Source of the DNA: a virus
IMG/VR virus record: IMGVR_UViG_3300031673_000216
Span: 1 to 37,804 of that record
Direction: 5' to 3' (one strand)
Length of the DNA: 37,804 nt
Positions 1,506 to 24,102 of this stretch are shown in pieces; the first letter of the stretch is position 1; the number at the start of each line of letters is the position of its first letter. The notes beneath the pieces are model-generated. The model ran no database searches. It was not told where the DNA came from and was given only the letters and a program-made list of their open reading frames with translations. The position numbers were made by a program, and so were the translations under genes.

Positions 1506-1535
1506 ACGCTAGTTTCCGTTTTGGGGTCAAGTCAA
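1506..1535 (-). promoter_or_regulatory. late promoter element, copy F
   Basis: On the minus strand it reads TTGACT, 18 bases containing TGACCCCAAAACGG, then TAGCGT. The -10 box ends seven bases before the ATG of the fibre-like gene (1498), predicting transcription from, or next to, the start codon. It is one of six aligned copies with identical 18-base spacing. Confidence 0.75.
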
Positions 1536-1542
1536 CAAACTA

Positions 1543-4173
1543 TTAGGGATACTTTTCTTCGTAGTCTGTGTCTTGGGGTGGATATTTTTCGTTGTAACTG
1601 GTTTCCTGCCCAGGATATTTCTCCTCATAAGTGGTGTTCTGCGGGGCATGCTTTTCGTTATATTCGGTTTCCTGGGCGCCGTACTTTTCCTGGTATTCGG
1701 TATTTTGTGGATTATAAATGTCCACATAGCCGCCAATAAGAAGATGGTAGGCAAGGCGCTTAGTAAGGGGTGGGGCGGGCGATTGGATTGCATACCTTAG
1801 TGGTTTCGTGATTGCCAATGATGGTTTGACTGCGTAAATGAGAGTTTTTGTTATAGCGGCCGGCGTAGTTATTATCCGGTAAGTAAGTGCTTTTGTTATG
1901 GCCGCGATGGAGACTTTGACCGCATATTTGAGCGGCTTAATGATACCAGCAGGAACACTCAAAATCGTATATTTAAGGGATTTCGTTTTCGTTGCCGGTG
2001 TAGTACGAATTGTGTATTTTGTTGACTTTGTGATTGGAGTTACAGCAATAATTTTGTAAGTCAATCCTTTTGAAATTGCCGAAGGGGCAGCGACGATACA
2101 ATAGGTGAGCGATTTCGTTTTTGCTGATGGAGTGGTTCTAAGAGCATATCTGAGATATTTAACCAGCGTCGTAATCCCAATTTCGTACCGCAAAGCCTTA
2201 GTGATGGCTGACGGAGTGGAGGGCACACAATACCTGAGGTTTTTGGTGATTGAGTGCGGTGAGACGACAATATAGGCGAGGGTTTTAGTTATAGCCGCAG
2301 GAGTTTGCCTAACTTTATACAATAGATTTTTGGTAATCTCGGCGATGGTCCTAGCGATTCGATACTCTAAAGCCTTTGTGATAGCCGTTGGGGTGGTTTC
2401 AACTGTATATTTGAGAGATTTATCGATTGCCCCGGGCAGGAGGATAGCATATGCCAACCCCTTGGTAATCGTCCCCCGCACCGCATATAAAATCTTGTCG
2501 CCGTTTTCCTGAAGAAGAAAATCACCGCTCTCTTGCAGTATTTTGATAGTGGTACCGATAATGCGGACCGCATATTTAAGAGATTTGTTGATCTCAAAAC
2601 CTAAGAGCTCCGATAAAATCTTGTCGCCGTTTTCCTGAAGAAGAAAATCACCATTTTCCTGAAGGATTTTAATAGAGGTACCGGTAGTGACCTTATAAGT
2701 CAAACTCTTTGAGAGGCTGGCAGGGAAGTTCAGGATTGTATATCGCAGAGGTTTTTGGATCGTGACGGCTGTGACCACATATTGCAGTGTTTTTTGGATC
2801 GCTGAGGGAGTAGCAGCCACTCTATAATTGAGTGTTTTCGTAATTGTGTCAGGCGTTGTCAGGATTTTATAGGCAAGAGATTTTGTAACCGCCGCCGCAG
2901 GAGCAATCACTTTATAGGCAAGGCTCTTTTGGATGGCGCTTACGCTTCGCTTAATGGCATAGATAAGGCTTTTGGTGATGGCAGAGGGGGTAATCTTCAC
3001 CCGGTAGGTCACGGACTTCTGGATAGCCGTTGCGGCAGCCTCGACTGTATATTTGAGACTCTTGGTTTTTGTTGATGGAGTGGCTTTAACTGTATATTTG
3101 AGGGATTTTTGGATAGTTTGTGCCCCTTCTCCTGCTATGTAGTTAACTGTCAAAACTGCATAGGGAGAAGTAGTTGGATAATTGTTTGCAGCAATAAATT
3201 GACCACTGGGACAACCATTATCTTCTATAACTAATCCAATATAATTATTCGCAGTCCACCCCGCCCTATTAACTATGGCTTGGATAATTGTTTTAATTTC
3301 TGGAGAATCATAGGTATCTTCTTTATGAAAATATCCATTTGCGTTCCAGGGAACGGTGGTAGCAATCTTGGCGTCATAGCAGGGAGGATGGTCGGGAGCC
3401 CACTGGCCGCAGTTGTCCGAGTCAACCGCTTTTATCAAGAGAGGGCAATTGTCATTGACGAAATCGCTCGGGTTATACCGAAGCGTTATCTTTGCAGAAG
3501 TTATCGTGGCGCCCTTAGGAACATTTAACTGGAACCGCAAGCCCATATCACAAACATCTATATTGTCAATCCCATAATAACCAGCAATTAACATATCCCC
3601 AGAGTAGATATTTTCGTTTGTAATATCCTCGAAAACATCATCCCAATCTGCTGCAATAGTCGGTGATACTACATCATCTTTATAGACATAGAAGATAGCA
3701 TCTACTTCGCTTTGAGCGTGCCAACTCCCGTAATAGTACAAACAATTATTTCCTGGTGCTGTTGGAGAACTCGAATCATATCCAACTTCAGGACAGTTTA
3801 AGCTATCGCCTCCAAGATATTCGAAAACAACAACATAATACGCCCCATTAGTTAAAGTAATTTTATTTGCCCCAGAAAAAGTAAGGGTAATAAGTGCCCT
3901 TTCGGTGGGAATTGCGGAGACATCAAGGGCATCAGAAACTGCTAGAGGAGAACCGGTGGCTATGCTCGAGCTGCCAAATGTTCCAGAGTGGGCGTAAATT
4001 TTTGCATAAACATTTCCTGTGGGAAGACCACGTTTTCTAACGTAAAACTGACAACTATTAAGAATCCCACCATCTGCAAGAAACGATTGGCCGTCTTGTT
4101 GGGTGGCGTCTCCGTGAACGCTTTGTTCACCATAGTAATTGCTTTCGCTATAACTATCTACAATTTGTGCCAT
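1543..4173 (-). CDS. repeat-rich fibre/adhesin protein with about 28 short repeats
   Basis: An 876-aa protein. Residues about 1-170 are beta-rich and of unknown family. Residues about 175-350 resemble DNRLRE-like beta-sandwich modules (GATITSAKITLRY; AIVNRAGWTANNYIGLVIED) and parallel the N-terminus of the 344-aa protein at 20309-21343. Residues about 353-810 carry some 28 units of roughly 17 residues with consensus ITKxLxYxV, interrupted by two ILQENGDFLLQENGDKIL segments. The C-terminus is five 11-residue units of the type PQNTEYQEKYG. A strong Shine-Dalgarno (AGGAG, six bases before the ATG) marks the start, and the upstream 33-aa ORF ends in TAAATG. No signal peptide is seen. A long virion fibre or host-adhesion protein is likely; the receptor is unknown. 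Confidence 0.65.
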   Translation of the reverse strand: MAQIVDSYSESNYYGEQSVHGDATQQDGQSFLADGGILNSCQFYVRKRGLPTGNVYAKIYAHSGTFGSSSIATGSPLAVSDALDVSAIPTERALITLTFSGANKITLTNGAYYVVVFEYLGGDSLNCPEVGYDSSSPTAPGNNCLYYYGSWHAQSEVDAIFYVYKDDVVSPTIAADWDDVFEDITNENIYSGDMLIAGYYGIDNIDVCDMGLRFQLNVPKGATITSAKITLRYNPSDFVNDNCPLLIKAVDSDNCGQWAPDHPPCYDAKIATTVPWNANGYFHKEDTYDSPEIKTIIQAIVNRAGWTANNYIGLVIEDNGCPSGQFIAANNYPTTSPYAVLTVNYIAGEGAQTIQKSLKYTVKATPSTKTKSLKYTVEAAATAIQKSVTYRVKITPSAITKSLIYAIKRSVSAIQKSLAYKVIAPAAAVTKSLAYKILTTPDTITKTLNYRVAATPSAIQKTLQYVVTAVTIQKPLRYTILNFPASLSKSLTYKVTTGTSIKILQENGDFLLQENGDKILSELLGFEINKSLKYAVRIIGTTIKILQESGDFLLQENGDKILYAVRGTITKGLAYAILLPGAIDKSLKYTVETTPTAITKALEYRIARTIAEITKNLLYKVRQTPAAITKTLAYIVVSPHSITKNLRYCVPSTPSAITKALRYEIGITTLVKYLRYALRTTPSAKTKSLTYCIVAAPSAISKGLTYKIIAVTPITKSTKYTIRTTPATKTKSLKYTILSVPAGIIKPLKYAVKVSIAAITKALTYRIITTPAAITKTLIYAVKPSLAITKPLRYAIQSPAPPLTKRLAYHLLIGGYVDIYNPQNTEYQEKYGAQETEYNEKHAPQNTTYEEKYPGQETSYNEKYPPQDTDYEEKYP
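1546..1710 (-). repeat. five tandem 33-bp coding repeats
   Basis: Five in-frame 33-bp units encode the 11-residue motif [PAG]Q[NED]TxYxEK[YH] at the extreme C-terminus of the 876-aa protein. Units differ at many third positions while keeping Gln, Thr, Tyr, Glu-Lys and mostly Tyr. This argues for selection on the peptide rather than recent slippage. Confidence 0.85.
1735..3120 (-). repeat. array of about 28 short protein repeats (ITKxLxYxV)
   Basis: In-frame repeats of about 51 bp encode units such as ITKSLIYAI, IQKSLAYKV and ITKPLRYAI, separated by linkers often of the form xxTPxA. Lys at position 3, a small or polar residue at 4, Leu at 5 and Tyr at 7 are nearly constant. DNA identity between units is low, so this is an old array. 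Confidence 0.85.
2487..2652 (-). repeat. 40-bp direct repeat inside the fibre gene
   Basis: Bases 2487-2526 and 2613-2652 are identical over 40 bp, 126 bp apart. They encode the two FLLQENGDKIL segments. Perfect DNA identity contrasts with the diverged short repeats around it, suggesting recent duplication or gene conversion. Confidence 0.85.
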
Positions 4174-4275
4174 TTATTCTCCTATCTCCATTCTCCCAAG
4201 GAAGGCATTATTTAAGACGGTATAGGCGCGCTTTACTTCATCTGAAAGTTGGTCTGGCAGTAAAGGTCTTTGCAT
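4174..4275 (-). CDS. 33-aa small ORF upstream of the fibre gene
   Basis: A small ORF beginning MQRPLLPDQLSDEVKRAYTV. It is supported by a strong Shine-Dalgarno (AGGAGG, eight bases before ATG 4275) and by its TAA abutting the ATG of the 876-aa gene (TAAATG), so translation is probably coupled. No family is recognised. It may be a short structural or leader peptide. Confidence 0.55.
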   Translation of the reverse strand: MQRPLLPDQLSDEVKRAYTVLNNAFLGRMEIGE

Positions 4276-4289
4276 GGTATTGCCTCCTG

Positions 4290-4308
4290 AAGCGCATTGT
4301 ATTGCGGT
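4290..4308. repeat. 19-bp direct repeat, copy 1
   Basis: The sequence AAGCGCATTGTATTGCGGT is repeated exactly at 4769-4787. This copy lies just before the Shine-Dalgarno of the 33-aa ORF, in the gap after the 144-aa gene. It contains a small dyad (CGCA...TGCG). Confidence 0.85.
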
Positions 4309-4321
4309 CTAAGCGGCTAAT

Positions 4322-4756
4322 TTAGGAAACAGGTGGCTCCGGTCCCCCTAGCCTTAGCTTGTTCAAATCATCAGTCACAATAAGCTCATCATTGGGCAAA
4401 ATCGCCATAATGACTTTATGAACAATGCCGTTAATGTTGGTCTCGTAACCAAAACAATAAAGAGTTATTCTTTGTTCTGCCGGAGTACCGACATTAAGGC
4501 GTGTCCTTCGATAAAAATGGATTAACTTCATCTTTTGGGGGTCAAAAAAGAGGGTATAAGGGCTTCTGCCCTCTATGGAAACCATTTTGAAAAGCATTAG
4601 CTTGTTTTGGTCTATTTCCTTAAATTGGTGGAAGGTGCCATCATCACCAAATTGTTTCAGGACCGTCCCATCAAAGAAATGGGCTTCCCATTGCCACTTT
4701 TCAGGGACGACTTCTTCGAACTTCTTGGTGTCTTTGTCAAAAAAGAGATATTTCAT
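4322..4756 (-). CDS. hypothetical virion-region protein (144 aa)
   Basis: Not recognised. It is a soluble, aromatic-rich, mixed alpha/beta-looking protein starting MKYLFFDKDTKKFEEVVPEKW, with an SPYTLFFDPQKMKLIHFYRR strand-rich centre and a C-terminal VIMAILPNDELIVTDDLNKL. ATG 4756 is preferred over an in-frame TTG at 4768; neither has a clear Shine-Dalgarno. It lies between the capsid-associated genes and the fibre gene and is flanked by the two copies of a 19-bp repeat. An FDPxK segment is faintly reminiscent of the 93-aa protein at 24121-24402, but homology is not established. Likely structural by position. Confidence 0.6.
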   Translation of the reverse strand: MKYLFFDKDTKKFEEVVPEKWQWEAHFFDGTVLKQFGDDGTFHQFKEIDQNKLMLFKMVSIEGRSPYTLFFDPQKMKLIHFYRRTRLNVGTPAEQRITLYCFGYETNINGIVHKVIMAILPNDELIVTDDLNKLRLGGPEPPVS

Positions 4757-4768
4757 TGTATTGATCAA

Positions 4769-4787
4769 AAGCGCATTGTATTGCGGT
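4769..4787. repeat. 19-bp direct repeat, copy 2
   Basis: An exact copy of 4290-4308, here just upstream of the start of the 144-aa gene and downstream of the zinc-finger gene stop. The pair brackets one gene, which could reflect insertion or duplication of that gene, or a shared regulatory site. Confidence 0.85.
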
Positions 4788-4798
4788 AGAGTCTATGC

Positions 4799-5062
4799 CT
4801 ACCGCACGACGGCGTACTTTTTATTCACAATTTCCCGTGCTTTTTGTTGGGCCTTCTCTGGACTCATTCCAGATTTTTCGAGCTTTACCCGTTCTGCGCC
4901 ACGCTCAACTGCTATCTGTGAAACCCGGGCAAATTTTTCCCCTAAGTGTTCTGGCTCTTTCGGTGTAAATCCCGTTTCGGGGCACAGATGGTCGATGTAC
5001 TCCTGCTCGGAAGCAAATTCTCCGTTACATCGGCCACAAATATGTTTTTGTTTGTCTGCCAT
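4799..5062 (-). CDS. small zinc-finger protein
   Basis: An 87-aa protein with an N-terminal C9-x2-C12-x12-H25-x-C27 arrangement (ICGRCNGEF...DHLC), which looks like a single zinc-finger knuckle. A charged helical C-terminus follows (SGMSPEKAQQKAREIVNKKY). It sits six bases after the 166-aa gene in the capsid cluster. The function is unknown; the finger may bind nucleic acid or simply stabilise a small structural protein. Confidence 0.65.
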   Translation of the reverse strand: MADKQKHICGRCNGEFASEQEYIDHLCPETGFTPKEPEHLGEKFARVSQIAVERGAERVKLEKSGMSPEKAQQKAREIVNKKYAVVR

Positions 5063-5067
5063 AAGTT

Positions 5068-5568
5068 TTAGGCCGTCTCATCATATTGATAATTCTTCGT
5101 GCTGGTTGAGCCGGCCGTATCTCCGGCATCAGTTTGAATCTGATCGATAAGATAATCAGAATAACCTATGGCCACTAAGCTACCAGTTAATGAGCCGCCA
5201 ATACCAAGATTGGCTGCTCCCGGATCAGCGGTTGGCATAGCCTCGGTTGCCTGGGTGCTAGTAGTGGCAACCGGAGTGGCGTAAGTTTTTTGAACATAAT
5301 CTGTCGCTCTCGCATTTGTTTTATGGACCGCGGACCCGCCCAAGGCGCCTGTCCGCCAGACTTGGAGATTATCAACCTTCGAAGAACCCCCCATCGCCGT
5401 CACATGGATCCTTTGGTATTTTTCGTAGGTATTGTTCCCTGGGGTAACAGGATAGGCTACGGGGTCTAAGTTGGCCGCATCAACATTCCCCATGTTTGAG
5501 TTGGTAATGTTGTGGGTGATTGTTTCCCCAGCGCCATTTGATTCACAAATTTCGACTGTTGCTGCCAT
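5068..5568 (-). CDS. capsid-associated protein (possible decoration or structural)
   Basis: A 166-aa protein rich in Thr, Ala, Gly and Asn (VEICESNGAGETITHNITN; IHVTAMGGSSKVDNLQVWRTGAL), with beta-strand-like spacing and no Cys pair, signal peptide or membrane helix. It lies directly downstream of the major capsid gene, the usual place for a head decoration or neck protein. A moderate ribosome site (AAGGA) lies about 12 bases before the ATG. A virion role is inferred from position and composition only. Confidence 0.55.
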   Translation of the reverse strand: MAATVEICESNGAGETITHNITNSNMGNVDAANLDPVAYPVTPGNNTYEKYQRIHVTAMGGSSKVDNLQVWRTGALGGSAVHKTNARATDYVQKTYATPVATTSTQATEAMPTADPGAANLGIGGSLTGSLVAIGYSDYLIDQIQTDAGDTAGSTSTKNYQYDETA

Positions 5569-5626
5569 GTTAGTTTTATTCCTTAACTACACCTGCTGGG
5601 ATTGTGGAAAGAGGGAGCGCAAAGGT

Positions 5627-6715
5627 TTAGAGCTTAAAGTACCCTTCAGCGAGTGCTGGGCGCCGCTCGTCCACAACCTTTGCACCGTAGACATTTAATC
5701 CTTTATAGGCTTTACCAAAGTTCCCTCGAAGGAACGGTTCGATCTCGGATTGGGTCATTGCCATTCCGAAAGTAATACCGCTCTTGTGTCCTGCCAAGAC
5801 ATGCCAACCAGTGACGGAATTACCGGCATACTGCACGCTCTCGTAAAGAGCAAACCCGGCCATCATGCTGATGAAAGCGCGCTTGACCACTTCTTCAATC
5901 TGCTTTTCAACAGCCGGGATATATTGAGGCGCTTGTCGGACTAAGGAAGCGATAGCTGGAGGAAGGGCCACCCAGCGATTGTCGCGCGGGACTTTCCTCT
6001 CATTCAGCTTGACAGCCAGTTGCTCAAGGAAGGAATAGATCGTGTCCTTAGTGACTTGAATCGCTGTCACCGCTTCGATGACAAAGGTTGCGCCTGCGGT
6101 AATAGCTCCGCCGGTATAGGCAGAAGCAACATCATCATAGTCATCCTCAATCGTAATATGGGTAGTATCGGTAAATGCTTTAATTCTGTAAAACTTAGTA
6201 TGGCCCGCTGCCTTAAAGCCTCGGCCAACCATTCCGGCGGTAAAGGTCGTGCCACTTCCCACGACTGCGCCGGTAGTGACAGTAACCTCGACCGTGCCGG
6301 TAATATAATCACTTCCAACTCTGTTTCCTGCGGCAACGTCGGGATAGAAACCCAAGATAAAGGCATCGCTGGCTTCCTGCAATTTCCCTTTAACTTGGTC
6401 AAGCAGGCTCCCCTCGGGATTCTTGATAAAGGACTTTAGTTTATCGTAATTCTTGACTTTGAAATAGAAACCTTTGGCTTGATCGGTCTTGAGTTGGCCG
6501 ACGGACTCATCCAAATCTTCGGGAGACATATCGGCACCGGTAAAGTTTTGAAGGTTTAATCCACCGACGGTAGGAATGTTGCAAATGGTGGCTTGGTCTT
6601 TAATTTCACCCTCATACTCATCGTTAGTGATAAGAGGGGTAATCATCCGATCGAAGTAGATCTGGACGATGCGGGCGGCGAAGGCTTCGGCTAATTTTGT
6701 TGCGTATGGGTCCAT
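5627..6715 (-). CDS. major capsid protein
   Basis: A 362-aa HK97-fold-type major capsid candidate, the shell subunit. Evidence is size, position after the scaffold-like gene, and a layout with an N-terminal helix (YATKLAEAFAARIVQIYFDRM), a mid-chain QVTKDTIYSFLEQLAVKLNERKVP segment typical of capsid spine helix regions, then NRWVALPPAIASLV, and a C-terminal VYGAKVVDERRPALAEGYFKL. Residues about 139-215 form a Gly/Thr-rich beta segment (TVEVTVTTGAVVGSGTTFTAG; HITIEDDYDD) that looks like an inserted domain. Unlike the other promoter-linked genes it has a 67-base leader with a hairpin directly before the ATG. It has only a weak purine-rich site in place of a clear Shine-Dalgarno. Confidence 0.82.
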   Translation of the reverse strand: MDPYATKLAEAFAARIVQIYFDRMITPLITNDEYEGEIKDQATICNIPTVGGLNLQNFTGADMSPEDLDESVGQLKTDQAKGFYFKVKNYDKLKSFIKNPEGSLLDQVKGKLQEASDAFILGFYPDVAAGNRVGSDYITGTVEVTVTTGAVVGSGTTFTAGMVGRGFKAAGHTKFYRIKAFTDTTHITIEDDYDDVASAYTGGAITAGATFVIEAVTAIQVTKDTIYSFLEQLAVKLNERKVPRDNRWVALPPAIASLVRQAPQYIPAVEKQIEEVVKRAFISMMAGFALYESVQYAGNSVTGWHVLAGHKSGITFGMAMTQSEIEPFLRGNFGKAYKGLNVYGAKVVDERRPALAEGYFKL

Positions 6716-6716
6716 A

Positions 6717-6751
6717 ATCGGGATTTTTCAACTTTCTTCTTCTGTCCCGAT
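6717..6751 (-). promoter_or_regulatory. 5' leader hairpin of the capsid gene
   Basis: Perfect 7-bp arms (6717-6723 atcggga and 6745-6751 tcccgat) enclose a 21-base purine-rich loop. The foot of the stem is one base from the capsid ATG. Leader hairpins of this sort can stabilise abundant structural mRNAs or present the ribosome site; that role is inferred. Confidence 0.6.
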
Positions 6752-6782
6752 CATTGGGGTAAGAGAAGTTTAACTAACTTAA

Positions 6783-6812
6783 ATCCTATTTACCGTTTTG
6801 GGGGGATGTCAA
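6783..6812 (-). promoter_or_regulatory. late promoter element, copy E (capsid)
   Basis: On the minus strand it reads TTGACA, 18 bases with CCCCCCAAAACGG, then TAGGAT. The -35 is a perfect consensus. Unlike the other copies it lies 67 bases before the start codon (6715), giving the capsid mRNA a structured leader. Confidence 0.75.
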
Positions 6813-6827
6813 GTAGTATCTTTGAGG

Positions 6828-7127
6828 CTAATTTTTCTTTGGGTCCGGTTCTTTTTTGGGTTCTGGCTTAAGAAAAACAAAAACTTTTCCGGCGTCCGCG
6901 TCATAGGTCATCTGTTGCTCCCGGTCAATTCCAAGCCTTTTTCGAATGTTCGTGTTGAGAAAAATAAAAGTGTCGCGTTCGATCAGAGTGGCAATGTATT
7001 CGTGTTGCGATCTGAGGTTCGCCTGGTTGCGGACGAGATCGTGTTCCTCCGTGGTCATGCTGAATTCTTTTGGTTTCGGCGGTGCCGGTGGCGCTTGTGG
7101 TGTTTGTGGTGCTTTTTGGTCGCTCAT
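6828..7127 (-). CDS. small head-region protein (99 aa)
   Basis: The N-terminus is Pro/Ala-rich (APQTPQAPPAPPKPKEFS). A helical middle follows (TTEEHDLVRNQANLRSQHEYIATLIERDTFIFLNTNIRKRLGI), and the charged tail is PKKEPDPKKN. No family is recognised. Its ATG overlaps the TGA of the scaffold-like gene (ATGA), and it is directly followed by the capsid promoter. The position between scaffold and capsid suggests a head-assembly accessory or minor capsid protein. Confidence 0.6.
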   Translation of the reverse strand: MSDQKAPQTPQAPPAPPKPKEFSMTTEEHDLVRNQANLRSQHEYIATLIERDTFIFLNTNIRKRLGIDREQQMTYDADAGKVFVFLKPEPKKEPDPKKN

Positions 7128-8146
7128 ATTTGAATTTTGATTTTTCCTGCCTTGACTAGGCGTTGATAGAGTTTGTGGTTCTTAGTACGAAGTTCGGCCG
7201 CCTGTTTTTCGTCGATAAAGCCGCCTTCCGGCGCTCTCTGACCGCCACTTCCGCTTCCAGACTCTAAGAGTGAGCCTCTCTTGCGTGGTGCCGGTGTTTC
7301 GGTGACAATGTTAAGAAACGCATTGGCTAAGTCCTCAAGATCAACCCCTCGGCGGGTTGGCTTCATGCAAAAAGCCTTAAATTCTTCTTCTTTGCCAGCT
7401 AATTTCCCAAATTCGGGTTTGGTAAGAGCAGTGGTAATAAAACTATCGACTCTTCCTGCCCATTCTTCGAGTTGCTTACCCTCTTGAGTGGCTTGGTGGA
7501 CCATATCGAATTTGCGTTTATTCATTAGATTGTCCTTAGCCAGTCGTTTTTCTGTCTCAGTCATCATATCCCAGTCCGGATACTCGGCTTTGAGTTCTTC
7601 CTCTTTCGGCTCCGGCAGATTGGCAGCGTTTTCGACCGTTTCGCCGAATTTCTTTATCTTGGCGTCTTGAATCTGGGCCTCAACTCGTTGGTGTTTATAG
7701 CGTTCCTCTACTGGTGGAAGTGGGGTTGCCGGCGGCGGGGCAGGCGGCGTCGGCTGGGCAGGCAATTCAATAGCAAATCTTCCGCGCTCATTGTCCGTCA
7801 ATTCTCCGGCGTGTTCCTCAAGAAACTCATACTCCCCTTCTTCAAGGTCACTAATCTCTTTTTGGCGTGACTCATCTAAATTGAATTTGCCTTCATCGGC
7901 AGGTGGCGTTGCTGCCGGAGGAGCGGTGGCAATACCAAGATTGGTCTTTTCCTCATCGCTGAACTCATCCGCGTGCTCTTGGACAAAGGTTTTCTCCGGT
8001 TCGGATAATTCATCGACCTTTTTAGACCGGACGTCCTCAATCTTAACTTCGGGGTTAGCAGGAGGGGTAGACTCGGCCGGGGGAGCATTGAGAGCGGCGT
8101 CTTTCTTTTCTTGGAGTTCTTCTGGTGTTGATTTATTTCCTGGCAT
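7124..8146 (-). CDS. scaffold-like protein
   Basis: A 340-aa highly charged, Pro/Ala/Glu-rich protein immediately upstream of the capsid gene, where scaffolding proteins normally sit. The N-terminal third has a degenerate internal repeat: DELSEPEKTFVQEHADEFSD resembles SDLEEGEYEFLEEHAGELTD. Pro-rich linkers separate it from a helical centre (EERYKHQRVEAQIQDAKIKK; AKDNLMNKRKFDMVHQATQE). The basic C-terminus (AAELRTKNHKLYQRLVKAGK) resembles the capsid-binding ends of scaffolds. No protease domain was seen. The call rests on composition and position. Confidence 0.65.
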   Translation of the reverse strand: MPGNKSTPEELQEKKDAALNAPPAESTPPANPEVKIEDVRSKKVDELSEPEKTFVQEHADEFSDEEKTNLGIATAPPAATPPADEGKFNLDESRQKEISDLEEGEYEFLEEHAGELTDNERGRFAIELPAQPTPPAPPPATPLPPVEERYKHQRVEAQIQDAKIKKFGETVENAANLPEPKEEELKAEYPDWDMMTETEKRLAKDNLMNKRKFDMVHQATQEGKQLEEWAGRVDSFITTALTKPEFGKLAGKEEEFKAFCMKPTRRGVDLEDLANAFLNIVTETPAPRKRGSLLESGSGSGGQRAPEGGFIDEKQAAELRTKNHKLYQRLVKAGKIKIQI

Positions 8147-8193
8147 ATGTACTGTCCGAAACTTCGGGTAAGTATCGCCGGTTATTAACCTAA

Positions 8194-8646
8194 TTACTCG
8201 TTATTTGCTTTGGCTTCGGCTTCCGCAACTGACTTTTCAAGGTCTTTCCTGGGAACGCCAACAGCCTTAACTCCAAGCTCCTTTGCCCGGGTTTGAAGAT
8301 CTTTATAGGGAAGTTTCGAGAGTTCGCTTTCTTTACCTTTACCTTCGTCGCTGGTTTTTCCGCCTTCCTCTTTCGCTTTTCTCTCTTCCTCAGCTTTTCT
8401 CTCTTCCTCAGCTTTTCTCTCGGCTTCTTCCTCGGCTGGCGCTGGCGTGGCGGACTTTTTCTTCAAAACAGCAGCCCACATTTCTCTCTGGTCGGCATTG
8501 AGATAAATTTTGCGGGCTCGGATAAATTTCTCATCGTCGGGGCTTAGTGAAGCACCAAGTTTGGCAATACGATTGAGTTCTTCTTGGATTTCGTTGAGAG
8601 TTTGCTGTTCGCGCTTACTGATTTTTTCCTGGTCTTTCGCGTCCAT
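8194..8646 (-). CDS. Rho-N/SAP-like domain protein (150 aa)
   Basis: ATG 8646 is chosen because a late promoter's -10 box ends six bases upstream and no Shine-Dalgarno exists, predicting a leaderless message. Residues about 1-65 are helical. The middle is a low-complexity Glu/Lys/Ala coiled stretch with KAEEERKAEEERK repeats. The C-terminal about 40 residues (LSKLPYKDLQTRAKELGVKA...RKDLEKSVAEAE) match the pattern of SAP/Rho N-terminal-like helix-extended-helix motifs, which often bind nucleic acid. Its place in the head cluster suggests a virion or assembly protein that touches DNA. The domain call is by pattern only. Confidence 0.6.
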   Translation of the reverse strand: MDAKDQEKISKREQQTLNEIQEELNRIAKLGASLSPDDEKFIRARKIYLNADQREMWAAVLKKKSATPAPAEEEAERKAEEERKAEEERKAKEEGGKTSDEGKGKESELSKLPYKDLQTRAKELGVKAVGVPRKDLEKSVAEAEAKANNE

Positions 8647-8652
8647 AATCAA

Positions 8653-8682
8653 AGGCTATCTGCCGTTTTTGGGTCATGTCAA
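8653..8682 (-). promoter_or_regulatory. late promoter element, copy D
   Basis: On the minus strand it reads TTGACA, 18 bases with TGACCCAAAAACGG, then TAGCCT. The box ends six bases before ATG 8646. It lies in the short gap after the 55-aa ORF stop (8698). Confidence 0.75.
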
Positions 8683-8697
8683 TAGGTAGTTTTGGCC

Positions 8698-8865
8698 TTA
8701 TTTTTTTCTTCGGCGTCTAGTCGGTTTCCATCCGTATCTGGCACCGTTCCGGGCGTTTGCCGACGCCTGTGCTTTCGCGCGAGTGGTAGAGTGTCCAACA
8801 ACATGCCCCGTGCTCTTTTCAACGATGACATAACCTTTTTTTGCTTTCCTGACAGTTACTGGCAT
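8698..8865 (-). CDS. 55-aa basic small protein
   Basis: A short ORF starting MPVTVRKAKKGYVIVEKSTG and ending in a run of Arg and Lys (PTRRRRKK). A very strong Shine-Dalgarno (AGGAGG, nine bases before ATG 8865) supports translation. It lies in the gap between the 126-aa gene and a late promoter. The beta-hairpin-like start and basic tail suggest a small nucleic-acid-binding or head protein, but no family is recognised. Confidence 0.7.
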   Translation of the reverse strand: MPVTVRKAKKGYVIVEKSTGHVVGHSTTRAKAQASANARNGARYGWKPTRRRRKK

Positions 8866-9271: not shown

Positions 9272-11068
9272 TTAGGGTATCATAGCTGGCAACATCGGCC
9301 TTGCTTGTGGCAAGGTGGGTGGAGCCGTTAGCGTTGGTTGGCCAGTTAGTTCACCCCCTCCCATTGGCAGTGTATTTAGTCTTTGCCTTTCAAAATCGAG
9401 AATCTGCTTAATCTCATCCGGCGTAAACTTCCCGAACTCCAAGAGTCTCTTGCGGTAGATTTCAATTAGAGGTATGTTATCCGGCATGTCTGCGCGCGCG
9501 CCCTGCATCCTTTGAAGGACATTACTATCCTCATCGTCTTTTTCGCTTCGGGAGAGCACCTTGCAGGTGTAACCCGCCTTGGAGCGCCAATCTTTCGACT
9601 CCACATCGCGCGGGTACATTTCGTCGTTCCATAAACCCTTCTTGTAGAGTGTTACTTTGTCCAAAAGATCGCCGGCCGCCTCAAGCATCTTGGCGTATTT
9701 GAGCCCAAACTCCTTCCAGTTATCGACGTAGAAAACAGATAGCGACTTGATTCGCTCCTGGGCGTTGGCCATAAGAATCTCTACCTCACCAAGGGTAATC
9801 TTCCGCGGCTCGGACACACCCTGTTGAATGGAGGTGGCCGCCGTGGCTTTCTCGGCCAGTTGCATGACAAAAGCCATATCCTCAATCGACCCTGTGAGTG
9901 CTGGGATATCGACTCTTTGATAAACGTCGGCCGGCTTGCCGGGGAGCGGGTACCAGCCAAATGCCTCTGGCTCGTAGACCTGGGGAACAAACTCTTTGTT
10001 GGCAGTTACGTCATAGAAGTTCATGCCGAAACTGCGAAGCGTCCGGTTTTCGATCATTTGTGAAAGCCAGGAATTGAGGATTTTATTCGGTGTCCGGATG
10101 GTATCGGCCATACCATCGGACCAAAAATCGGTTCGCTCAACATCATCACCCCACGAAGTAAAAGGCAGGTGGTAGCGCCAGAAATGGTCAACCGTCTTGC
10201 CGATAACAGTTTCCAACTTTTCTTCCAATAGAATCTCGCGTCCCTCGGCCGTCACAATCAACCAGTATTGATCCTCTTTTTCTTTGTCATCCCAACGCTT
10301 AAGATAATGCTCGTTAAGTTCGGCGTAAGTTTCACCAAGTTGCGGATTGTCAACGTCCGGGACTCCCATCCGGCGCATGCGGTCGTTCCTGTCTTGAACG
10401 GTTTGCAGATTCTCATCGGCTTTGAGAAGGCCAGCTTGCGTGGCCATGTACTCTTTGAGCTTTTTGACTGCTGCCTGATCATAATTTTCGTTTTCCTCAA
10501 GGGAAGAAACGGGCCGGAAAATGTGCTGGTGGCACAAATACCGCGCTGAATCGAGGTTAGATGGATCCACATAGCGGTCAACTAAAACGTCCTGCGGGTC
10601 CAGGATTTCAAAGAAAAAGCGGCCGTTGACGATATTAAGTTTTTTGAAGGACCGGCCGTAGAGAAAGACCTGTTTTTTATCGACAATATCTTTGATGACG
10701 AGTTTGTTATATTCAGCACAGTACTCGAAGTATTCGTTATAGAAAATTTCTTTGTCTTTGTTGTTATCAAGATTATCAAAGTAAAGCATTGGCGGATCGT
10801 CGATGTCTTTCAAAGCGGTCCGGATTGACATTTTCATCAGGGGAACATTGACACTTTGACGCTGGGTGAGGCGGTTGATTATCACCTTATCGCGATAAAG
10901 CATGTAGTTCTCAGTCCACTCATCGTGCCGGCGGTATTGCCAATTGAAGGCGGATTCCTTATGGTTCCCAAGAACTAAAAGTGTTGGGTTAACTACTTCC
11001 TCTTCTTCGCTCTCACTCGGAACCGGCAAAGTCTGAGCCCCTACTGAAGAAGGCAACTGATCGTCCAT
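9272..11068 (-). CDS. portal protein (probable)
   Basis: A 598-aa protein of the right size for a phage portal, the dodecameric ring through which DNA enters and leaves the head. After a disordered acidic start comes a typical portal-like core (WQYRRHDEWTENYMLYRDKV), DIDDPPMLYFDNLDNNKDKE, a strand-rich wing (KKQVFLYGRSFKKLNIVNG; ILDPQDVLVDRYVDP), DHFWRYHLPFTSWGDDVERT and a long helical segment (SGSIEDMAF-type region leading to FGLKYAKMLEAAGDLLDKV). The Pro-rich tail is disordered. ATG 11068 lacks a Shine-Dalgarno and lies seven bases from a late promoter -10 box. The portal is separated from terminase by the tail genes, an unusual order. The call is by pattern and context. Confidence 0.72.
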   Translation of the reverse strand: MDDQLPSSVGAQTLPVPSESEEEEVVNPTLLVLGNHKESAFNWQYRRHDEWTENYMLYRDKVIINRLTQRQSVNVPLMKMSIRTALKDIDDPPMLYFDNLDNNKDKEIFYNEYFEYCAEYNKLVIKDIVDKKQVFLYGRSFKKLNIVNGRFFFEILDPQDVLVDRYVDPSNLDSARYLCHQHIFRPVSSLEENENYDQAAVKKLKEYMATQAGLLKADENLQTVQDRNDRMRRMGVPDVDNPQLGETYAELNEHYLKRWDDKEKEDQYWLIVTAEGREILLEEKLETVIGKTVDHFWRYHLPFTSWGDDVERTDFWSDGMADTIRTPNKILNSWLSQMIENRTLRSFGMNFYDVTANKEFVPQVYEPEAFGWYPLPGKPADVYQRVDIPALTGSIEDMAFVMQLAEKATAATSIQQGVSEPRKITLGEVEILMANAQERIKSLSVFYVDNWKEFGLKYAKMLEAAGDLLDKVTLYKKGLWNDEMYPRDVESKDWRSKAGYTCKVLSRSEKDDEDSNVLQRMQGARADMPDNIPLIEIYRKRLLEFGKFTPDEIKQILDFERQRLNTLPMGGGELTGQPTLTAPPTLPQARPMLPAMIP

Positions 11069-11075: not shown

Positions 11076-11105
11076 ACGCTAGTTGCTGTTTTGGGGTCAT
11101 GGCAA
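11076..11105 (-). promoter_or_regulatory. late promoter element, copy C (portal/head operon)
   Basis: On the minus strand it reads TTGCCA, 18 bases with TGACCCCAAAACAG, then TAGCGT. It ends seven bases before the portal ATG at 11068, which has no Shine-Dalgarno. Confidence 0.75.
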
Positions 11106-18441: not shown

Positions 18442-18446
18442 AACTG

Positions 18447-19550
18447 TTATAAATTGCCTCGATAAGTGTCATAGATTTCCTGAATATCTGACGCTTTTTC
18501 CGCGGGAGCGCCATATCTCTTCCCCAAATCACTTTCCATGTAGAGCTTATAAATATCCTGCAAACTCATAAACGGCGCATATTGAGCCACCAAAAGCGGG
18601 AATTGTCCTACCCAGCCGGCCGATGTTTGTTTACCCTGAACCGTTATCGCGCTTTCTAAAAATTGTGCCTCTATATTCTTAGTGGTAGTGGTTGTGGTCG
18701 GCTTGCTTTTTCCAATGAGAGTCTTTTTGGTCACGTTTCCTTCTTCATCAAGGGCAACCACATAAACATTTGTCCCGTCATCGTAAGTCTGCAAGGTCAA
18801 GGCTTTCTTTTGGGCGGTTTTTACCATGCTGTCAATGACGCTGGTTGATAAACCGGTCGTGGATGACCATTGGGCAATATCGGATCCGGAAGCCTTATCG
18901 AATGCTCCAAGTGATAGCAATTTATTAAATTGGTCGAGATTATCCTGATAGGCTTGCCGGTCAAGCGTATATTGATTCGTTTGAACGTTATATTGAATCT
19001 GGGCATCTGCTTGCAATCTTGCCAATTCGTCACCGACGCGGGTTAATTCCCGTTCTGCGTCCGACTTAATACCGGCAATCTTTCCGGCCCTGGTTGCCTG
19101 GCCGAACCATGGGTTACTTTGAGTCCCGGATATAGCCGCATCGCGTTCCTTCTCTAATTTAGCGATTTCTTCTCCCTTAGCTTTTATCTCCGGGGTTTGA
19201 AAGAGCTTACCGTATAAATCGGTCAAATTAGGCACTTGTGGAGCGACAGAAGGGGAAGTAGTTCCGGTGGGGGCGCCTGGAATGCCCGCAGAAGGCGCGG
19301 GAGGAGCGGAAGCCGACGGTAACGCCGGTGAAAGCCCCGCTTTTCTTCTCTGTTCCTCAATATAGGCCGGATTGTTAGGGTCCGTTTGGGCGGCCACTTC
19401 TTTGGAGACTACTTTTCCTGGTTCATATTCGCCTGGATTAAGAAGTACGCCTCCCACTAAACGCCGAGAATCGTACCATCCGTACTCCTCCCCTTGAACA
19501 ATCTGGCCGCTATCTAATTTAATTTTATTTCCTGCAAGTACTTGTGTCAT
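18447..19550 (-). CDS. putative internal/ejection virion protein (367 aa)
   Basis: The N-terminal domain is small and beta-like (LAGNKIKLDSGQIVQGEEYG). A Pro/Ala/Ser-rich linker at about residues 75-110 follows, then a long charged helical region (KAKGEEIAKLEKERDAAISG; DAERELTRVGDELARLQADA) suited to coiled coil. The tail is helical and ends SDIQEIYDTYRGNL. It sits between the adaptor-like gene and the giant polyvalent gene. In short-tailed phages this place usually holds internal core or ejection proteins. No specific family is recognised; the role is inferred from position and coiled-coil content. Confidence 0.55.
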   Translation of the reverse strand: MTQVLAGNKIKLDSGQIVQGEEYGWYDSRRLVGGVLLNPGEYEPGKVVSKEVAAQTDPNNPAYIEEQRRKAGLSPALPSASAPPAPSAGIPGAPTGTTSPSVAPQVPNLTDLYGKLFQTPEIKAKGEEIAKLEKERDAAISGTQSNPWFGQATRAGKIAGIKSDAERELTRVGDELARLQADAQIQYNVQTNQYTLDRQAYQDNLDQFNKLLSLGAFDKASGSDIAQWSSTTGLSTSVIDSMVKTAQKKALTLQTYDDGTNVYVVALDEEGNVTKKTLIGKSKPTTTTTTKNIEAQFLESAITVQGKQTSAGWVGQFPLLVAQYAPFMSLQDIYKLYMESDLGKRYGAPAEKASDIQEIYDTYRGNL

Positions 19551-19552
19551 GG

Positions 19553-20263
19553 TTAATCCTCGTCTAAGCCGAGATCAACGCCAAAATTGCCTGCCTGGAA
19601 TCCGGCATTGCTGCCCGGAAAGAAATTCGGCACATTAAACATCGGCCTATTCATAGTTTGGGCGGTTTGTTGCCGCTTTTGTACTTTGTCCCAGATAATC
19701 GAAAGCAGCGTCACGGCGCCTTTTTCTTCCGAGTCGGACAGATCTCTGTCAATCCGCTTAATAAGATCTGAAAGTGCTTTCCTAACTATTGCCTCATTGC
19801 CAGTGTCATCGTGCAGAGAAAAGATAGTCTTGTCGGTGGGATTGACAATCTGCGGCGCCTGAATTTGTCCCCATAAATCAATGGGGGCAACGACCATCGG
19901 GATCGGGAAAATGAAATACTGCCGGCCATAATCGGCGAAAATCCGCTTGGTGCTTGAAGGGTTTTTGCGCTGATGTTCAAGATAATCGTTCCATGCCTTG
20001 CGCCGGTAGGGTACACCGTTGAAATATAAAAATTCGCCGAGCGTGTCGGTCCGAAAGTCGGCAGGATAGTCATAATACTCATGCGCAATGATTGAGTTGG
20101 CTCGGCGTCCCCGGCGGAGTTCTGTCCAAGAGTAAAGCCCGGTTGCCCAGAGATGGGCATATTGGATTGCTTTTTTCTTACGATCGGCAGTATAGAGAGT
20201 GCTTGAAGCCGCGGCCATTAGGTCATCGGTGAGCTTCTCGGTCATATCATCTAGCGTCTGCAT
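19553..20263 (-). CDS. head-tail adaptor-like protein
   Basis: A 236-aa helical protein. Its start (MQTLDDMTEKLTDDLMAAAS) and the following segments (KKAIQYAHLWATGLYSWTEL; YYDYPADFRTDTLGEFLYFN; GVPYRRKAWNDYLEHQRKN) resemble phage head-tail connector/adaptor proteins, in which an N-terminal helical bundle leads to a tyrosine-rich strand region. ATG 20263 lacks a Shine-Dalgarno and is six bases from a late promoter -10 box, so it is predicted leaderless and first in an operon with the internal and polyvalent genes. The function is proposed from pattern and position. Confidence 0.5.
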   Translation of the reverse strand: MQTLDDMTEKLTDDLMAAASSTLYTADRKKKAIQYAHLWATGLYSWTELRRGRRANSIIAHEYYDYPADFRTDTLGEFLYFNGVPYRRKAWNDYLEHQRKNPSSTKRIFADYGRQYFIFPIPMVVAPIDLWGQIQAPQIVNPTDKTIFSLHDDTGNEAIVRKALSDLIKRIDRDLSDSEEKGAVTLLSIIWDKVQKRQQTAQTMNRPMFNVPNFFPGSNAGFQAGNFGVDLGLDED

Positions 20264-20269
20264 GATTCG

Positions 20270-20299
20270 ACCCTAATTGCCATTTTGGGGTCAACGCAA
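20270..20299 (-). promoter_or_regulatory. late promoter element, copy B
   Basis: On the minus strand it reads TTGCGT, 18 bases with TGACCCCAAAATGG, then TAGGGT. It ends six bases before ATG 20263 and drives the adaptor-internal-polyvalent gene group. Confidence 0.75.
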
Positions 20300-20308
20300 G
20301 AAGTATCT

Positions 20309-21343
20309 CTAAAGATTCAAATTGTTCTTGAAAATTTTATAATAAAAGTCAACATAATAATCCTCATCTTCCTCGTTCCACCCCTTAACCACGAAGTAAA
20401 GTCTTGTCGTTGTCATATAGTAGCCAAACTGCCGATAACCGCCTGAGCCGGCGTGGTACCTTCCTAGTGGTTGAAAGTTGTCCATAAGATCATCTTTGGC
20501 GTAGACATCCGTAAAAGGGTAGTAGTCTAAATTATGAGTGATGTATCCGACGACGGTATACTCTGTCTCCGCCGGGCTCACGACATGAAGTTGGTGGTAT
20601 CCGGCCAAATCATATTTGAGAGTATTGAATTGTGACGAGACTTTGAGGTGCCTTGGGTTATTGGTGTTCATAACATTGATTCTGTCTCTGGCGGCTTTCA
20701 AACCGAAAAACGCCACCGGATCGGGACCAATGTAATCAATTACATAAGCAAGTGGCTTTGAAATCGTCACCAGTCGCTCAATAGCATATTTGAGGTCTTT
20801 ATTGATTAGGTGAGTGGGTAGACCATATTCGACCGTGAGGAGAGCCGCATAAGAAGGGTTATCGGCGTAATCATAAAAATTTGCTTGACTGTTCGAAGGG
20901 GAGCCATCGTACTCAATTAGAAATCCCATGTCGTTGCCGGCAACCCAACCGGGCCGCTCGACTATCTCTTGGACGATGGCGGCTAAACCCGTAATGTCAT
21001 ATTCCACTTCATCATCAAAATTGATTTGGTCCCAATCGGCGGAAGCGCTTGTTTTGGGCCTACCGGTAGGATCTGAAGAAAAATCCGCAGTATCATCTTC
21101 ATCGATACCATGAACCTTGTTGTTCCAAGTATTTTCAAATATAGCAGTCGATCTGACGGTAATCTTTGCGGAAGTGATAATTGAACCGGGTGGAATAGTT
21201 ACATTGTTAAACCTAAGCGCCGCAGTTAGGTTGCCGAAGTAGGTATCGCCACCCACGTAAACCGCCCCTGTCTGCCACGAGAGACTAGCCTTTTTATACC
21301 CATCGTCATTGGTACTGGCAACCCGTTTGGTAAATGTAGACAT
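20309..21343 (-). CDS. fibre-like protein with DNRLRE-like domain and two ITK-type repeats
   Basis: A 344-aa protein. Residues about 1-175 resemble a DNRLRE-like beta-sandwich (TAALRFNNVTIPPGSIITSA; IVQEIVERPGWVAGNDMGFL), matching the middle of the 876-aa protein in order and motifs. Two copies of the short repeat follow (INKDLKYAI and ISKPLAYVI). The C-terminal domain is aromatic and strand-rich (TVVGYITHNLDYYPFTDVYA; YYVDFYYKIFKNNLNL) and shares its general pattern with the 261-aa neighbour. It lies three bases after the 261-aa gene. A tail-fibre or appendage paralogue of the 876-aa protein is the best explanation. Confidence 0.65.
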   Translation of the reverse strand: MSTFTKRVASTNDDGYKKASLSWQTGAVYVGGDTYFGNLTAALRFNNVTIPPGSIITSAKITVRSTAIFENTWNNKVHGIDEDDTADFSSDPTGRPKTSASADWDQINFDDEVEYDITGLAAIVQEIVERPGWVAGNDMGFLIEYDGSPSNSQANFYDYADNPSYAALLTVEYGLPTHLINKDLKYAIERLVTISKPLAYVIDYIGPDPVAFFGLKAARDRINVMNTNNPRHLKVSSQFNTLKYDLAGYHQLHVVSPAETEYTVVGYITHNLDYYPFTDVYAKDDLMDNFQPLGRYHAGSGGYRQFGYYMTTTRLYFVVKGWNEEDEDYYVDFYYKIFKNNLNL

Positions 21344-21346
21344 AAA

Positions 21347-22132
21347 TTAAACCACAATAAGCCACCGAATATGTGCGACGATATCGTTCGTCGGATGGCT
21401 GTTAGCAATACGAAATATCATATTTGTTTGATCCGCCCCAGAGCTGCTAAATTTTAGATGAGAGTCAGTGTTGGGAGATTGGTTGCTTGCCAAAACTGCT
21501 TCGGTCAACGATCCTTCGCGCATAAAGGCAATGACATGAGGAGCGTACGGCCAGTCGTGGGCGAGCAGGTAATCGGTTGCCGGTGTACTATGCGGAACAG
21601 TCGGCTCGAACAGACCCGTAACCACAATCTTGAAGGTGTTATAGTCAGAATGGTAAATAAAATCGTTTGGGTCCCTCGTTAGTTTTGCATTGATGCCATT
21701 CTTAGCGACGGCGATCACCGGATGGCTGTCATCAGGCTCTCCCACCACTCGATACCTCAAACTTTTCCTTAAAAGATTCGGCGCCACAATCTGATCGTAA
21801 AAGATATGATACTCAACCAGCCGCGGCGTCCCCCAATTCCATATCTTCAATTCCGAAGCATTGACCTCGATGTTCATAGGTAGATCTTCGGAGTCACCCT
21901 GTAAAAGAGCCCATCTTTGGCCCTCAATTCGCCCAAAAACTTTGACTAATGGCACATATCCCAAGTCATGAGTGATTACAGTACAAGTGCCTGCTGGGGC
22001 AACGATAGTGTCGTGGAGCTTCTCCTTAATCAGTACCCAATCCTCATCGCCATAAATGGCGAAGTGGTCCGGGTTGTTATCGGTATCTGCTCGATACCCT
22101 GGCAATGCGACGCGAATAGTTGGTGATGGCAT
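21347..22132 (-). CDS. fibre-like tail protein (261 aa)
   Basis: A 261-aa strand-rich protein with a THDLGYVPLVKVFGRIEGQR segment typical of phage fibre and appendage domains. A single LLRKSLRYRVV copy of the short repeat lies mid-chain, and a second similar domain follows (LLAHDWPYAPHVIAFMREGS). The two halves and the end of the 344-aa protein share a pattern: His-Asp/Asn-hydrophobic, aromatic-Pro-h-V/T. It is the second fibre-like gene after the tail beta-propeller gene and is separated from the next gene by three bases. No catalytic motif is seen. Confidence 0.6.
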   Translation of the reverse strand: MPSPTIRVALPGYRADTDNNPDHFAIYGDEDWVLIKEKLHDTIVAPAGTCTVITHDLGYVPLVKVFGRIEGQRWALLQGDSEDLPMNIEVNASELKIWNWGTPRLVEYHIFYDQIVAPNLLRKSLRYRVVGEPDDSHPVIAVAKNGINAKLTRDPNDFIYHSDYNTFKIVVTGLFEPTVPHSTPATDYLLAHDWPYAPHVIAFMREGSLTEAVLASNQSPNTDSHLKFSSSGADQTNMIFRIANSHPTNDIVAHIRWLIVV

Positions 22133-22135
22133 AGG

Positions 22136-22642
22136 TTAGACATATCCTAAAAGTATGGATGGGATTAGGTTCGAATCAAAAAACACCATGCGGCCACCGC
22201 TAGGACTTCCTTCGATGACCACCTTGGAGTCGCCAGCAATAAGACTTCCTGCCTGAAGCGCTCCTTTGAAGATGGCATCTCCCGTCGCCACATCGATGGC
22301 AACGGTATAGTCGCCATTGACGTTTCTAGCCGCCATCCCGTTTGGGGTAAAAGCAATCTCTCCCGATACGCCAAACTCATACTCGCCGATTTTCAAAGCG
22401 CCGCTTTTACCAAAAGTAAATTCTGCTTTGATTTTTCTGGTCCGGGTATCGAGTGCCTTGCTGATGGTTTCATGGGCAATGATTTTTTCAGGAAAGTGTT
22501 TTGGGATCTCGGCCGTGGGCCGGATTACTTCCTGTCCCATTGGGTTTGACCCTTGTTGAGTTACTGGTACAGCTTCTTGGCCAGTTCCCGGAAGTGGTTG
22601 GTCCTCGATGGTTTCTGGATAATAGACTTCATTTTCTGCCAT
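22136..22642 (-). CDS. short fibre/tail-tip protein (168 aa)
   Basis: The first 45 residues are Pro/Gln/Glu-rich and look disordered. The rest is a regular beta array (RTRKIKAEFTFGKSGALKIG; NGDYTVAIDVATGDAIFKGA; LIAGDSKVVIEGSPSGGRMV). The motif sequence GALKIGEYEF, GDAIFKGAL and GSLIAGD is typical of triple-stranded beta-helix fibre or tail-tip modules in many phages. The gene starts two bases after the stop of the beta-propeller gene. It probably forms a trimeric short fibre at the tail tip; that is inferred. Confidence 0.6.
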   Translation of the reverse strand: MAENEVYYPETIEDQPLPGTGQEAVPVTQQGSNPMGQEVIRPTAEIPKHFPEKIIAHETISKALDTRTRKIKAEFTFGKSGALKIGEYEFGVSGEIAFTPNGMAARNVNGDYTVAIDVATGDAIFKGALQAGSLIAGDSKVVIEGSPSGGRMVFFDSNLIPSILLGYV

Positions 22643-22644
22643 GG

Positions 22645-24066
22645 TTAATACTCAAAATACGGCTCAATCCGGTAAATTTCGGGGGTATCATTGCCCGACG
22701 GAGTGAGCGTAACCTGCAATTCCTCGACTTTTCCTAAATCACCAACGAAAAAGACTGCTTCCTGAGCGCCTTCGGTATCAAACGCTGTTTCACCATCGCG
22801 CAGATTGGAAACTTTGAATTCACCATTCTTATTTAGTTTGTATTTCACCGAGATAGAGCAATCAGCAGGGAGCGGGGCGGTAGTCAGAACGATAGAGTTC
22901 CACTTGACAGTTTTCTGAAAGCCAGTCTTGGCCGGTTGCCAGAGGTCAATGGTTTCATAAACGGCCTCGGCCTTGTTATTTTGGTCAATGTCTTTGACGC
23001 CATAATTAGCACCGGATTTATAGGAGATAAGAAGATGGTCGCCAACTTTAATAACGCCGCCTATTTCATCGCAATCGAACTGGTACTCAAGGTTCGGGAC
23101 AATCGAGGCGTTCTTGAACTTGCGGCCGTAGGAGTAAATGCCGCTTTTCTCCGCGCCGTTACCCCAAACTCCGAAAAGCGCCAGATATTCCTCACTGGTG
23201 ACGCCGCCCGGATTGACCTTGCCATTGTCAGGAAAGGTAAAGATGGGCAGGCCGTTCAAAAAATCTGCATTGAATACCTGCCCTTTGCCATCAACTAAAA
23301 GGCTCACTTCGGTATCAATTATGGCCGCTATATCCTGCAAGGGAATAGGCTTTGAGTCATCCCAGCCAAAGGCTTCTTCGGTATCCATACCATCCCAAAG
23401 GAAAAGCGCTGATTGTACCAATTGATTTTTGGCCACGGTCCCGATAACGACGTTTTTATCGCGCTGCAATAGAACTTTGGCATAATTGCCAGGGGTAAAG
23501 CGGAGGATCTCGTTAGTGTAGCTGTCATCGTAACCAACCAGCGCTAAAGTCTCATCATTGCAAATCACCAGCGCTCCTATACCACCGCCAATGCCGCGCA
23601 TCATGTGAGAAAGGCTTGAGGTGAGATTAGTTTTTGGCCATCCGGCGTCGGCGTCAATATCGGACCAATCGATCTCGCCAGGGATTTCTTTTCGGTGAAG
23701 TTTGGTGGCCGTTGCCCAAAAAAGATATTTCTTGCCACTTGAGACACCCCACTCCCAGGCGCCCAAAATCGCCCCGTCGGTATCGGTATAAACAAGGGTA
23801 CAAGTTAAATCAGGAGTGAATTTATAGATCCTTCCGTTTCTTGAAAATGCGTAGTAATTCCCATCAGATGAAGGAACCCACCAATCGGCAAGAGTGTTAA
23901 ATCCTTGGGCCGGCGGGGTAAGATCAAGAAGCGCTTGGTTGCAGGAAAGCGTATCGGCTTTTTTTCTGATATTGAGGTTCTTTCCGGATTTGAAGGCACC
24001 CTCAACCCCTTTGTCCTCATAGTCCGAGAATCCACCCTTGAACGATTTGAGAATGAAGTTGGCCAT
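22645..24066 (-). CDS. beta-propeller-like tail (nozzle/stabilisation) protein
   Basis: A 473-aa protein from ATG 24066 (an in-frame TTG lies two codons upstream). It opens with FILKSFKGGFSDYEDKGVEG, then has repeated strand blocks of propeller character (NYYAFSRNGRIYKFTPD; KYLFWATATKLHRKEIPGE; YLALFGVWGNGAEKSGIYSYG). It ends in a strand domain finishing PEIYRIEPYFEY. This layout is like phage tail nozzle/stabilisation proteins that close short tails. The start is six bases from a late promoter -10 box with no Shine-Dalgarno, so a leaderless message is predicted. It leads the tail operon with three fibre-like genes. The family call is by pattern. Confidence 0.55.
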   Translation of the reverse strand: MANFILKSFKGGFSDYEDKGVEGAFKSGKNLNIRKKADTLSCNQALLDLTPPAQGFNTLADWWVPSSDGNYYAFSRNGRIYKFTPDLTCTLVYTDTDGAILGAWEWGVSSGKKYLFWATATKLHRKEIPGEIDWSDIDADAGWPKTNLTSSLSHMMRGIGGGIGALVICNDETLALVGYDDSYTNEILRFTPGNYAKVLLQRDKNVVIGTVAKNQLVQSALFLWDGMDTEEAFGWDDSKPIPLQDIAAIIDTEVSLLVDGKGQVFNADFLNGLPIFTFPDNGKVNPGGVTSEEYLALFGVWGNGAEKSGIYSYGRKFKNASIVPNLEYQFDCDEIGGVIKVGDHLLISYKSGANYGVKDIDQNNKAEAVYETIDLWQPAKTGFQKTVKWNSIVLTTAPLPADCSISVKYKLNKNGEFKVSNLRDGETAFDTEGAQEAVFFVGDLGKVEELQVTLTPSGNDTPEIYRIEPYFEY

Positions 24067-24072
24067 GACCAA

Positions 24073-24102
24073 ACGCTAACCGCCGATTTGGGGTCAAGAC
24101 AA
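24073..24102 (-). promoter_or_regulatory. late promoter element, copy A (tail operon)
   Basis: On the minus strand it reads TTGTCT, 18 bases with TGACCCCAAATCGG, then TAGCGT. It ends six bases before ATG 24066. The conserved -10 plus spacer core is shared with the other five copies. Confidence 0.75.

Follow-up and report, generated by a model that had tools for sequence, protein, structure and literature searches.

Gram-positive phages have late activators of the RinA/ArpU type, whose small DNA-binding protein gene lies at the early/late junction just upstream of terminase. The middle promoters of T4 combine a MotA box centred at -30 with a host -10 box by sigma appropriation; they have no -35 box and need an excellent -10 (PMC2988021). 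In cluster K mycobacteriophages, start-associated sequences carry an AGGAG core in the position of the ribosome site (PMC3203893). In Actinobacteria and Deinococcus-Thermus, genes are described whose TANNNT -10 box adjoins the open reading frame and whose messages are leaderless (PMC3160421, PMC12340547). Patescibacteria are missing from the phylum list of PMC3160421 and go unmentioned in the main text of PMC12340547, and a literature search found no report of a leaderless signature in this group. The literature on leaderless messages, Patescibacteria and phage promoters gave nothing on late-gene control in Patescibacteria phages, of which little seems to be known.

The DNA analysed here, referred to as the window, is a 37,804-base IMG/VR virus record (IMGVR_UViG_3300031673_000216) with integrase, terminase, capsid and lysis genes, probably of a phage infecting ultra-small bacteria (Patescibacteria). 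Six 30-bp elements reported in a first-pass annotation are found at their annotated places, all on the minus strand, align without gaps and precede structural operons downstream of terminase (Table 1). Their consensus is TTGnCn-N18-TAGnnT with the spacer core TGACCCCAAAACGG; no element departs from TTG, TAG or the final T. A 30-column matrix built from the elements scores each of them at 39.5–46.4 bits, the next best of about 75,000 positions reaching 10.1 bits; when each is left out in turn, it is recovered at 28–41 bits, compared with at most about 12 for any non-site. With up to three mismatches, the consensus has 7 matches in the window (0.14 expected from dinucleotide shuffles; 0 of 100 shuffles reach 7). 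The seventh, a three-mismatch site at 20934 on the plus strand, was judged to be a chance match. At five genes the -10 box ends 6 or 7 nt before the ATG, exactly as annotated. The capsid gene is the exception, its element being too far from the ATG for a leaderless message. The five genes do lack a Shine-Dalgarno sequence, but this is not specific to them, as most late genes lack one (SD-like sites in 4/21 late and 7/18 early genes).

Table 1. Late promoter elements and other features of the window
Feature	Position	Strand	Remarks
Element 1	24073..24102	-	TTGTCT-N18-TAGCGT; 6 nt before propeller ATG; prophage orthologue has its own element
Element 2	20270..20299	-	TTGCGT-N18-TAGGGT; 6 nt before adaptor-like gene ATG; none found before prophage orthologue
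Element 3	11076..11105	-	TTGCCA-N18-TAGCGT; 7 nt before portal-position ATG; orthologues with elements in prophage, L007, L168, L172
Element 4	8653..8682	-	TTGACA-N18-TAGCCT; 6 nt before ATG at 8646; orthologues with elements in prophage, L007, L168, L173
Element 5	6783..6812	-	TTGACA-N18-TAGGAT; 67 nt before capsid ATG; aligned promoter in every relative examined
Element 6	1506..1535	-	TTGACT-N18-TAGCGT; 7 nt before fibre-like gene ATG
Fibre-like gene	746..1498	-	start at 1498
Major capsid protein	5627..6715	-	start at 6715; phrog_267 match, E 1.5e-18
Capsid mRNA leader with hairpin	~6716..6776	-	hairpin ATCGGGA...TCCCGAT abuts start codon
Gene 8194-8646	8194..8646	-	start at 8646
Portal-position protein	9272..11068	-	start at 11068; directly after TerL in relatives
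Adaptor-like gene	19553..20263	-	start at 20263
Propeller gene	22645..24066	-	start at 24066
Terminase large subunit (TerL)	24417..25847	-	no late element in front
Winged-helix protein	28418..28678	-	86 aa, GTG start; candidate late regulator reading spacer core
tRNA-Gly (CCC)	34722..34794	+	adjoins integrase gene, same strand
Tyrosine integrase	35080..36144	+	marks temperate phage
Putative holin and endolysin	117..749 and 36573..37778	-	likely; right end of the record, the fibre operon being at the left end

We read the six elements as activator-helped, leaderless late promoters of a temperate phage, presumably of Patescibacteria, with the winged-helix protein as the factor (probability about 0.6). 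The host RNA polymerase would need a phage-encoded DNA-binding protein to use the TTGAC -35 with so poor a -10 (TAGnnT); this protein would contact the conserved core, located in the 18-bp spacer immediately after the -35. At five genes, transcription would start about 7 nt past the -10, which puts the first base of the message on the A of the ATG or on the base preceding it; these five messages would thus be leaderless and translated by a route that serves a large part of the host genome. The capsid message would instead have a short leader with a hairpin at the start codon. The late promoter and the leaderless start are well supported by sequence comparison, and a phage-encoded factor reading the spacer is likely. 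As in the TANNNT leaderless genes, the -10 is about 6 nt from the ATG, a Shine-Dalgarno is absent and a leaderless message is predicted; here, however, the setting is a phage family and a lineage with genomes of about 1 Mb (apparently Patescibacteria), and the phage promoters differ in their weaker -10 boxes and in having a conserved core in the spacer. The likeness to T4 middle promoters lies in a proposed phage DNA-binding protein, a phage-specific box near -30 to -20 and a -10 kept by the host sigma. Unlike in T4, no activator box replaces the -35, TTGAC being present both in the window and in the prophage described below, the -10 is poor, and the core lies inside the spacer.

A terminase scan of named genomes found a related prophage in JAJYDJ010000003.1 (G001), with identities to the window of 62% (TerL), 50% (portal), 48% (capsid) and 43% (propeller). 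The prophage has seven elements, all on the late strand, of the form TTGACAnGGTATAAAAATTGTTGC-TAnnnT; the spacer is again 18 bp, the ATG mostly follows after 6 nt, and the core, GGTATAAAAATTGTTG, is different from that of the window. The TTG is missing from one copy, and the -10 box does not always fit TAnnnT. No copy occurs elsewhere in the host genome. Both phages have an element at four orthologous genes (portal-position, 8194, capsid and propeller), and among these only the capsid gene has a long leader, in both phages. Two genes have an element in one phage but not in the other: a 126-aa gene in the prophage and the adaptor gene in the window. The portal–capsid and propeller–adaptor blocks after terminase are in swapped order in the two phages, and the promoters travel with their genes.

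An exact scan of IMG/VR for the window core gave no match. A relaxed scan returned 14 single matches, considered chance, none of them with family genes; with only chance matches in IMG/VR, no close relative there has the window core. The occurrence of the motif in related phages had been named beforehand as a test, and its outcome is divided: the exact sequence is absent, but the architecture is kept at orthologous late genes, which fits a co-diverging regulator. All family capsid genes examined have a TTGAC promoter aligned with that of the window, followed by a conserved leader, and this alignment identifies TTGAC as the -35 and TAGGAT as the -10 box. In the relatives, the portal, propeller and adaptor genes have a -10 near the ATG (about 6 nt) of the types TATATT, TAGAAT and TATACT, several following a TG. 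L007 has TnGACA-AGTRACAAA...-TAnnnT-6-ATG before two genes that also bear elements in the window, and elsewhere among the relatives the same genes are preceded by yet other cores or by plain host-type promoters. The annotation of the elements as late promoters thus gains from promoters of the same geometry in the same places, before orthologous structural genes in the prophage and several IMG/VR phages. Other searches were less productive. A shared upstream motif search within each of G002, G004 and G009–G011 found nothing core-like. Querying IMG/VR and 380 genomes of the phylum for the portal, with a single protein or an alignment of two, gave nothing new; TerL and the winged helix were the better baits. 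The portal-position protein itself matched no known portal in the databases. More distant TerL relatives (beyond about 50% identity; chiefly phages of Bacteroidetes) were set aside, having no comparable element, as was a second TerL match in the class (G369), a short fragment with a different portal.

The predicted leaderless starts have a counterpart in the host of the prophage. About 560 kb of its genome (about 1 Mb) was surveyed at the first ATG of ORFs of at least 150 aa. TAnnnT lies exactly 6 nt before the ATG in 110 of 460 ORFs (24%), against a background of 13 per position (p ~3e-66), with the consensus TGnTATAAT and an SD-like site in 7%. This excess, with so few SD sites, indicates that leaderless starts are the norm in this host. 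The spacing check proposed for the host genome is therefore borne out in the host of the related prophage rather than the window's own, and the leaderless reading is strengthened by this and by the -10 boxes about 6 nt before the same genes in the relatives. In other genomes, pooled, TAnnnT at gap 6 occurs in 16/87 (background 3.6) for the phylum and 19/150 (background 4.1) for the class. The TGnTATAAT-N6-ATG signature is strong in the G001 genome (L112–L140) and is seen in the pools L141–L160. Genome sizes of 0.5–2 Mb in the group and a bacterial 16S point to Patescibacteria as the G001 host; one TerL relative is named Candidatus Kaiserbacteria.

Against this background the phage promoters look deficient. 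Their -10 boxes match TATAAT at 3.2 of 6 positions in the window and 2.9 of 6 in the prophage, compared with 4.9 of 6 in the host leaderless promoters. The first-pass annotation had proposed a phage-specific regulator, and the comparison favours one: copies within one phage share the core, other phages have other cores, and the pairing of a poor -10 with a fixed spacer core peculiar to the phage is suggestive of a cognate phage protein. Spacer identity is 0.67 within and 0.37 between phages (0/5000 permutations); when the two discovery phages, window and G001, are removed, the difference is modest (0.48 within, 0.42 between; 61/5000 permutations). At the capsid gene, an 18-bp spacer fits best in 6 of 7 phages with the winged helix and a 17-bp spacer in most others, several being ambiguous; this contrast is a hint only, because host promoters use both lengths (18 bp in 11/110 and 17 bp in 18/110 of the host leaderless promoters).

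Where no obvious regulator beyond small HTH proteins had been noticed, there is now a concrete candidate, the winged-helix gene, which would bind the core. The protein (86–92 aa) is 35% identical between the window and G001 and, besides a distant integrase match, is the clearest non-structural protein common to both. A profile search of IMG/VR found it in 14 contigs, 12 of which have the family portal gene, and late genes of these contigs have promoters of the TTG-N18-TAnnnT type. The gene usually precedes terminase, a few kb ahead of the portal gene; in the G001 prophage it is in a separate early arm instead. A gene at the early/late junction upstream of terminase recalls RinA/ArpU, but the candidate has no profile match to such families, and the G001 gene is located elsewhere. 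In a presence/absence comparison of phages other than L007, the near-complete G002 and G004 lack the winged helix and have host-type late promoters. Conservation beside a conserved module does not in itself make a gene the regulator of that module. The AlphaFold2 model is a winged helix (pLDDT ~90 in the core). In the alignment the exposed positions of the recognition helix are variable and the scaffold and wing nearly invariant, which would be the expected look of a DNA-binding protein diversifying in specificity and is not proof of function.

Foldseek and PDB searches placed the protein no closer than the general MarR/Fur/LexA fold, and such general matches do not decide between activator and repressor. 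Its database relatives are mostly repressors of the LexA, MecI and MarR types, and repressors classically bind between -35 and -10. The core could thus be the operator of a phage repressor, with late promoters that are silent in the lysogen, fire on its removal and are still leaderless. Such an arrangement would suit the integrases of both phages, the position of the core and the good -10 boxes of several relatives. L168, L174 and L180, which have the winged helix, combine good -10 boxes with loosely shared spacers, so that dependence on an activator is not obvious in these phages. We nevertheless think repression unlikely, as the core is not palindromic, the sites are confined to late operons, and -10 boxes in the window and prophage far weaker than those of the host suggest that help is needed.

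The elements might also be ordinary host-type promoters whose shared core was spread recently through each phage genome by duplication or gene conversion, with no special factor reading it. Cores that vary by phage and fade in some relatives (the spacers of L171 are just 30% identical) would be expected from this; however, the flanks of the copies are unrelated with the 30 bp kept, conservation ends at the promoter boundaries in two independent phages, the window and G001, the -10 boxes are poor and the copies stand before late genes only, which makes duplication improbable. A phage alternative sigma or RNA polymerase reading the whole 30-bp element, in place of the host sigma, would account for conservation that exceeds the needs of sigma-70 and includes the spacer. 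We hold this to be quite improbable: a Pfam/PHROG scan of early proteins of the window and prophage found no sigma or polymerase domain, the TTGAC -35 is common to relatives with plain host-like promoters, and the -10 box is loose in the prophage. That the core acts in RNA, as a translation or stability signal on messages begun upstream, is very hard to credit: like the cluster K sequences, it is a short phage-specific repeat that immediately precedes the start codon in some of the genes, but it has no Shine-Dalgarno-like content, -35 and -10 boxes flank it at promoter spacing, and the capsid element is about 70 nt from the ATG in both phages and aligned with the promoter of the relatives.

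The activator-helped promoters may extend to a whole family of Patescibacteria phages, in which leaderless late messages would be controlled by a small winged-helix activator reading the spacer, activator and core co-diverging while the -35/-10/start-codon geometry stays fixed, to give mutually orthogonal switches. This wider proposal, built on comparison of sequences, is tentative and has somewhat less than even odds. If true, it would provide a promoter rule for finding late genes, and for placing start codons correctly, in these phages and their hosts, where the leaderless signature marks about a quarter of the long ORFs of one genome, and a natural series of matched regulator/promoter pairs of one geometry and different cores.

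In most of the family, the hairpin of the capsid leader pairs with or abuts the start codon. Its arms are CATAATCGG/CCGATTATG, CATATCGG/CCGATATG or ATCGGGA/TCCCGAT; these differences look compensatory and suggest translational control of the capsid gene. In L009, L014, L096 and L104, the leader of the orthologue of gene 7124-8146 has a CCCCG(A)...CGGGAC hairpin like that of the capsid.

The tRNA-Gly of the window is likely an attachment-site remnant or a phage tRNA. It is 92% identical to a tRNA in a genome of the class of the G001 host, which may lend weak support to a similar host for the window phage. If the genome is circularly contiguous, the likely lysis genes would come immediately after the fibre operon and so fall under the sixth late promoter. 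Long repeats encoding serine-rich (SPS-type) stretches lie beside structural genes in the relatives L009 (9993-10480), L014 (8814-9250) and L046 (8699-9800).
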